A DNA stretch of 64,000 bases from Candidatus Methanomethylicia archaeon (GTDB lineage: Archaea > Thermoproteota > Methanomethylicia > Culexarchaeales > Culexarchaeaceae), in contig JANXEO010000001.1 of NCBI GenBank assembly GCA_025058215.1, forward strand, positions 248,001 through 312,000. Direction: 5' to 3'. Shown here in pieces: positions 14,606 to 23,450 of this stretch. The position numbers and the translations under genes are program-made. The notes under the pieces were generated by a model, which was not told where the DNA came from, searched no databases, and saw only the letters and a list, made by a program, of their open reading frames with translations. Position 1 is the first letter of the stretch; every line of letters starts with the position of its first letter.

Positions 14606-14765
14606 GGGGCCGTAAAGGGTCGGGACTTTGGAAGCGATAAGCCGTAGCTCAGTAAGGCAGAGCGGCGGGCTCCAGAGTATAAAATAGTATGACTCGAAGC
14701 GGGATGATGAAGCTCTGGAGCTGGGAGAAACCCGTTGGTCGTGGGTTCAAATCCCACCGGCCCCA
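14606..14765 (+). tRNA. tRNA-Trp (CCA) with two introns
   Basis: The acceptor GGGGCCG (14606-14612) pairs with CGGCCCC (14758-14764), discriminator A14765. The D arm does not follow directly: 32 extra nt separate the acceptor from TAGCTCAG. The intron ends are ambiguous within a 6-nt direct repeat GCCGTA (14609-14614 and 14641-14646); 14614-14645 gives the best, though relaxed, bulge-helix-bulge (three of four pairs). The second intron, 14676-14729 (54 nt), is at the canonical 37/38 site with perfect CTCC/GGAG pairing, leaving GCGGG-CTCCAGA-CCCGT. That intron contains a box C-like GATGATGA (14703-14710) followed by CTCTGGAGC, which is complementary to the anticodon region. Confidence 0.9.
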
Positions 14766-23362: not shown

Positions 23363-23450
23363 GGGGCCGTAGGCTAGCTTGGAAGGCTGCGGGGTTAGAA
23401 AAGTCCCCCAATGGGTCCCCGTGACCGGAGTTCAAATCTCCGCGGCCCCA
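23363..23450 (+). tRNA. tRNA-Pro (TGG) with non-canonical intron 23397-23411
   Basis: Acceptor GGGGCCG/CGGCCCC, discriminator A23450, T arm CGGAG-TTCAAAT-CTCCG. The anticodon stem CGGGG/CCCCG encloses 22 nt. Removing 15 nt between positions 33 and 34 leaves the loop TTTGGGT with anticodon TGG and G37. The cut sites fit a canonical bulge-helix-bulge: exon GGGG pairs with intron CCCC, bulges TTA and AAT, cut after two bases in each. The D stem contains one G-G mismatch. Confidence 0.87.

Follow-up and report, generated by a model that had tools for sequence, protein, structure and literature searches.

A tRNA-Trp gene of Culexarchaeia with an intron at position 3/4 and a proposed surrogate acceptor strand in its 5′ leader

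The question raised by the tRNA gene at 14606-14765 of the window (the whole stretch of 64,000 nucleotides analysed here) is where its first nucleotide lies, and how its acceptor stem is formed when the 5′ strand of that stem is interrupted. The gene, on the + strand, encodes tRNA-Trp(CCA) and contains two introns, the removal of which leaves a cloverleaf with a CCA anticodon and the acceptor GGGGCCG/CGGCCCC. The region reads GGGGCCGTA at 14606-14614 and GCCGTAGCTC from 14641, the 6-nt repeat GCCGTA is found at 14609-14614 and 14641-14646, and another interruption follows the anticodon on its 3′ side. A preliminary description of the locus had read all of this correctly; however, it took 14606 as the start of the 5′ exon and counted 32 nt between the acceptor and the D arm, where we find a 16-nt leader and a 16-nt intron. 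ARAGORN made no call at 14606-14765, and the Rfam tRNA model matched the gene only partially, from position 4 to 67, the start at position 4 being a hint that positions 1-3 were detached. The assembly that includes the window spans 452 kb and is 46%-complete; the AtpB encoded near the tRNA-Trp gene is 87% identical to that of Candidatus Culexarchaeum nevadense and 81% identical to that of Culexmicrobium profundum, which identifies the uncultured host as an archaeon of Culexarchaeia type.

The strict bulge-helix-bulge (BHB) motif, denoted hBHBh′, consists of a 4-bp centre and two 3-nt bulges, each cut after its second base (PMC3978253). A scan demanding four central pairs, two 3-nt bulges with cleavage following the second base of each, and also a spliced product with intact acceptor and D arm, gave a single solution per sequence, which was the same in 7/7 tRNA-Trp sequences: GGG^A...AA^GCCG. 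In the source genome the motif reads leader..[GUCG]GG^A..[CGAU]AA^G, with 14619-14622 paired with 14635-14638, and the bulges GG^A and AA^G recur in all seven sequences scanned. Given the required spliced product, the boundaries are unique, and the GCCGTA repeat, within which the splice sites had been thought ambiguous, is thus irrelevant to them. The motif places the 5′ exon (positions 1-3) at 14622-14624, GGG, this being the sole strict-BHB solution giving GGGGCCGTAGCTC; therefore, as read from the sequence, position 3/4 is interrupted by an intron of 16 nt (ACTTTGGAAGCGATAA, 14625-14640), and the 16 nt that precede the exon, including GGGGCCG at 14606-14612, are 5′ leader. The remaining leader, TAAAGGGTC (14613-14621), provides the BHB outer helix (14617-14618) and part of the central helix (14619-14621). 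By sequence reading and alignment, exon 2 (positions 4-37, anticodon CCA at 14672-14674) occupies 14641-14675, and the 3′ exon (positions 38-73) lies at 14730-14765, with the 3′ acceptor strand CGGCCCC at 14758-14764 and A73 at 14765; this 3′ exon is invariant within the order. The spacing of TATA elements could not fix the 5′ end, as A+T is high throughout the leaders. A pairing of intron letters GGGYYGG with the 3′ acceptor strand (65-71) was considered and dropped, since these letters are those of the BHB centre and exon 1.

The earlier reading, with a 5′ exon GGGGCCG(TA) at 14606 and a 32-nt intron cut within the repeat by an endonuclease of relaxed specificity, draws on the conservation of the first copy and on its perfect match to the 3′ strand. 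Nevertheless, none of the phases of the repeat yields a strict BHB; the best candidate, at 8/9, has three of four pairs, and one relative (G006) cannot use this phase because U8 would be changed. In addition, in a tRNA-Lys gene (L182) described below, the second copy continues into U8-A9, and the first copy there must therefore be leader. Cleavage of the real BHB, at GGG^A/AA^G, would take place in any case, and we regard the 32-nt intron as very improbable. The imperfect three-pair motif is replaced by one with 4/4 pairs and two 3-nt bulges that covaries, and the supposed need for a relaxed endonuclease is not supported.

Support for the motif came from comparison among relatives. The central helix appears as GUCG/CGAU, GCCG/CGGU, GCCG/CGGC, GUUG/CAAU, GCUG/CAGU and GGUG/CACU, all of them standard pairs (100%, eight sequences), and both sides have changed in two of the pairs. 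The covariation score of the whole motif is 0.57, against a mean of 0.24 for shuffled alignments (0/500 shuffles reach 0.57), and it drops to 0.08-0.17 when the partners are slid; such counts lean high as the sequences are related, although the slide control retains that relatedness. The outer helix has 2 bp in most genomes of family f1, 3 bp in G005, G006 and G008, and 1 bp plus a mismatch in G002 (f1); the definition of hBHBh′ calls for a helix longer than 2 bp on each flank. The inner helix comprises about 2-4 bp and is weak in G006. The minima of RNAfold count against the BHB, which in most genomes they did not recover unaided: the unconstrained minimum lies 3-9 kcal/mol below the BHB-enforced precursor fold, as computed with 37 °C parameters for a thermophilic host.

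The possibility that the locus is a pseudogene or an assembly error could be evoked from the failure of the tRNA finder to see it. A DNA search of 41 related genomes recovered the entire gene, insertion included, at 80-84% identity in G001-G004 and G006 (same family and order), as well as a match in G005 that starts at the D arm and whose 5′ part was aligned by structure; a homologous insertion is present in G008, from another family of the class. Altogether, the architecture is kept in 7/7 genomes examined in the order, with intact exons in these seven assemblies, and in that one other family. Genomes with a match have a single tRNA-Trp gene, and no second one, which the preliminary description had named as a sign of a pseudogene, was seen in the relatives or in the 46%-complete source assembly. 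The presence of the same gene across the order, with one tRNA-Trp per genome, argues strongly against a pseudogene or an assembly error, to which we attach almost no probability. The idea that the gene is functional and has an additional intron on its acceptor side is supported.

How far this arrangement extends was evaluated with a covariance model built without the leader copy and used to search 398 Thermoproteota genomes. Scores of at least 50 bits were obtained only in the order and in G008, the next best being 33.6; within the 398 genomes, no match of at least 34 bits lay outside the class for this model, which is specific to this D arm. Matches of around 30 bits were set aside as mostly plain D arms, the sole real one among those read being L193, a tRNA-Phe gene of a distant family. 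Elsewhere in the class, the acceptor is intact in G012 and in 26 other genomes with a match, which have a different extra intron in the anticodon stem, at about 28-30 (L077-L085, L089, L149-L171 and L172). Each tRNA-Trp gene read in the class has two introns, one of them at 3/4 or at about 28-30.

The reassignment of GGGGCCG (14606-14612) to the leader raises the question of why it should be complementary to the 3′ acceptor strand at 14758-14764. In families f1-f3 it is kept as GGGGC[C/T]G while the surrounding leader letters diverge, and a 7-bp match of this kind arises in 0.02-0.8% of shuffled leaders. When the BHB is enforced, the precursor is closed by the leader copy in all genomes but G008, which has only a partial copy, GGGCTAG, and whose leader pairs with the D arm instead; folds deprived of the copy lose about 9-15 kcal/mol. 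The best explanation, which we hold with considerable confidence, is that the locus is a working two-intron tRNA-Trp(CCA) gene with a BHB-bounded 3/4 intron, in which the leader copy would act as a surrogate acceptor strand. Copy and true strand are of equal strength in the five f1 genomes, and strand exchange there would consequently not be driven by pair strength; moreover, predicted folds after splicing still put the copy on the 3′ strand. These two facts could also be taken to mean that the copy is a switch, slowing maturation by its competition with the restored strand and serving as a checkpoint or regulator. However, no sign of a signal or ligand is found and several genes carry weaker, G-U-containing copies, and we deem a switch improbable.

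Similar copies were found in other intron-bearing tRNA genes. In L180 (G008 C22:250-540), a 3/4 intron is accompanied by the leader copy GGGGCTG, and its motif, read by eye, has bulges GG^G and AA^G. This gene has a class-I body and an anticodon loop reading UGA; ARAGORN calls it Ser, and its assignment as tRNA-Gln was rejected because of that loop, the tRNA-Gln(UUG) of G008 being L183. The close resemblance of the L180 intron to that of tRNA-Trp suggests, from sequence, that an intron may have been transferred between genes sharing the acceptor GGGGCCG. In the tRNA-Lys gene L182 the intron is at 9/10, and GGGCTCG in the leader precedes the gene's own acceptor, GGGCCCG, which is contiguous; L193 combines an intron at 6/7 with the leader sequence GGCGAGG; and the tRNA-Gln genes L183 and L247 carry AGCCCGG. 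Variants that still pair through G-U (GGGGCTG, GGGCTCG and GGCCCGG) are among the copies.

The tRNA-Gln genes with a D-arm intron offered a wider sample, since they were searched for in the 398 Thermoproteota genomes by exon and intron letters only, the leader not being used. The 20 genes recovered, from 17 genomes and 10 genera, are partly related by descent and do not represent 20 independent events; 19 of their leaders have a full 7-bp match to the 3′ acceptor strand (five via G-U) and the remaining one matches at 6/7. In the thirteen genes whose motif was read (L258 and L183 by eye, as their inner helix falls below the scan cut-off), the central strand consists of acceptor-side nucleotides 5-8 (CGGU). 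Copy and gene are separated by a spacer of variable length and sequence, while the 7-mer is kept. As a background, a second copy 7-32 nt upstream is present in 4/182 tRNA genes with a contiguous 5′ strand, three of which are intron genes of this type, leaving about 1/179 for ordinary ones. In the genes read, then, a splice motif that takes up the acceptor 5′ strand is, by sequence, accompanied by a spare copy of it in the leader. Sequence and covariation together show the BHB, the intron ends, their conservation and this association.

These data also bear on the alternative that accepts the 3/4 BHB intron but takes the leader copy for a role-less relic of intron gain by local duplication, or of promoter sequence. 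The copies are short and near the gene, and where a tRNA 5′ end is directly repeated beside a disrupted tRNA gene, the integration of an element has been invoked (PMC3293823). A relic would hardly be expected to keep its 7-mer while spacer and flanks diverge, as occurs in f1-f3 and in tRNA-Gln genes of several families, to be nearly absent from ordinary tRNA leaders, or to vary by G-U changes that leave it able to pair; we therefore see it as a rather unlikely account, although one to be reckoned with. It appears somewhat probable that the surrogate copy is a general, previously undescribed element of tRNA genes in Thermoproteota, supplying a provisional acceptor stem wherever the splice motif borrows the 5′ strand.

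The splicing endonuclease expected for such a motif was sought in the genomes. Two paralogues are present in nearly all complete genomes of the relatives: an alpha subunit, closest to that of Aeropyrum pernix (E 1e-48), which retains the Tyr, His and Lys and has a segment resembling the Crenarchaea-specific loop (KVRKPKDLNF), and a beta subunit without the His. The predicted enzyme resembles the A. pernix alpha2-beta2 enzyme (PDB 3P1Z/3AJV) in these residues and the loop. The search for an alpha2-beta2 enzyme that had been recommended was in this way successful for the relatives, whereas in the 46%-complete source assembly no alpha subunit was found and the only splicing-endonuclease gene is beta-like (L001, G000 C1:327328-330585). 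This gene shares its strand with a UbiA-type prenyltransferase-like gene, which its start either overlaps or directly adjoins.

We infer the following course of events, with an exchange of strands and a role for the leader copy. Until splicing, the true 5′ acceptor strand (G1, C5-C6) would be held in the BHB, and the leader copy GGGGCCG would pair with the 3′ acceptor strand, giving the precursor an acceptor-like stem for folding and 3′-end processing. The alpha2-beta2 endonuclease would then excise the intron by cuts at GGG^A and AA^G, after which joining of the exons would restore GGGGCCG; the restored strand would replace the copy, and RNase P would take off the leader along with it. Such a scheme sets out concretely in what order splicing, RNase P and tRNase Z would act.

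Non-canonical tRNA introns are known mainly from Thermoproteales (PMC4090602, PMC3218864), including introns at 3/4 (Sugahara et al. 2008, as reported in PMC4090602), in agreement with what the preliminary description had stated about such positions, and many also occur in Atabeyarchaeia and Freyarchaeia (PMC11291895). The tRNA-Trp intron resembles the Thermoproteales 3/4 introns in position and BHB type and differs in its lineage, Culexarchaeia, which extends these introns beyond Thermoproteales; the gene here also has a 37/38 intron. With hBHBh′ it shares the 4-bp centre, the two 3-nt bulges and the cut sites, but one strand of the centre and outer helix comes mostly from the 5′ leader, not from an exon, and the outer helix is of 2-3 bp. 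A text search of the description of Culexarchaeia (PMC9723716) found no introns, and a search of the open literature, outside which the key 2007-2010 papers on Thermoproteales introns lie, returned no mention of an acceptor strand copied in a tRNA leader. The leader copy is the less expected part. The gene illustrates how an intron placed directly behind nucleotide 3 can be accommodated in a tRNA: the leader, usually treated as disposable, provides half of the splice motif and, if our reading holds, a stand-in acceptor strand. In practical terms, tRNAscan-SE 2.0 extends candidates by 60 nt for introns near the ends (PMC8450103), and the leader copy could be a signal by which tRNA finders catch genes now missed.

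The second intron, at about 37/38 (54 nt, 14676-14729, ends approximate), is kept in 33/40 genomes of the class and contains a box-C-like element, GGGATGATGA, at about 14701-14710. The C-like GATGATGA is conserved, and UGACC..GGGAUGAUGA together with the anticodon-complementary CUCUGGAG is found in most of the class; no canonical D box was seen, Rfam gave no C/D match, and by eye the intron lacks a strict BHB. It shares with the archaeal box C/D RNA nested in the tRNA-Trp intron (PMC4090602) the 37/38 position, GATGATGA and the anticodon-complementary CTCTGGAG, and differs in its 54-nt length and the lack of a clear D box; it may be a box C/D-like RNA and a putative guide. Among other tRNA genes, a D-loop intron is present in tRNA-Ser(UGA) of G003 (L181, C4:34290-34560) and missing from the apparent orthologue in the source genome (L102), a difference that, from the two sequences, is a recent gain or loss. 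Finally, a class-I tRNA gene at 23363-23450 of the window has the acceptor GGGGCCG, and its anticodon loop is interrupted; the ARAGORN call is Phe, with loop letters (GUUAGA) that are not decisive as to isotype.
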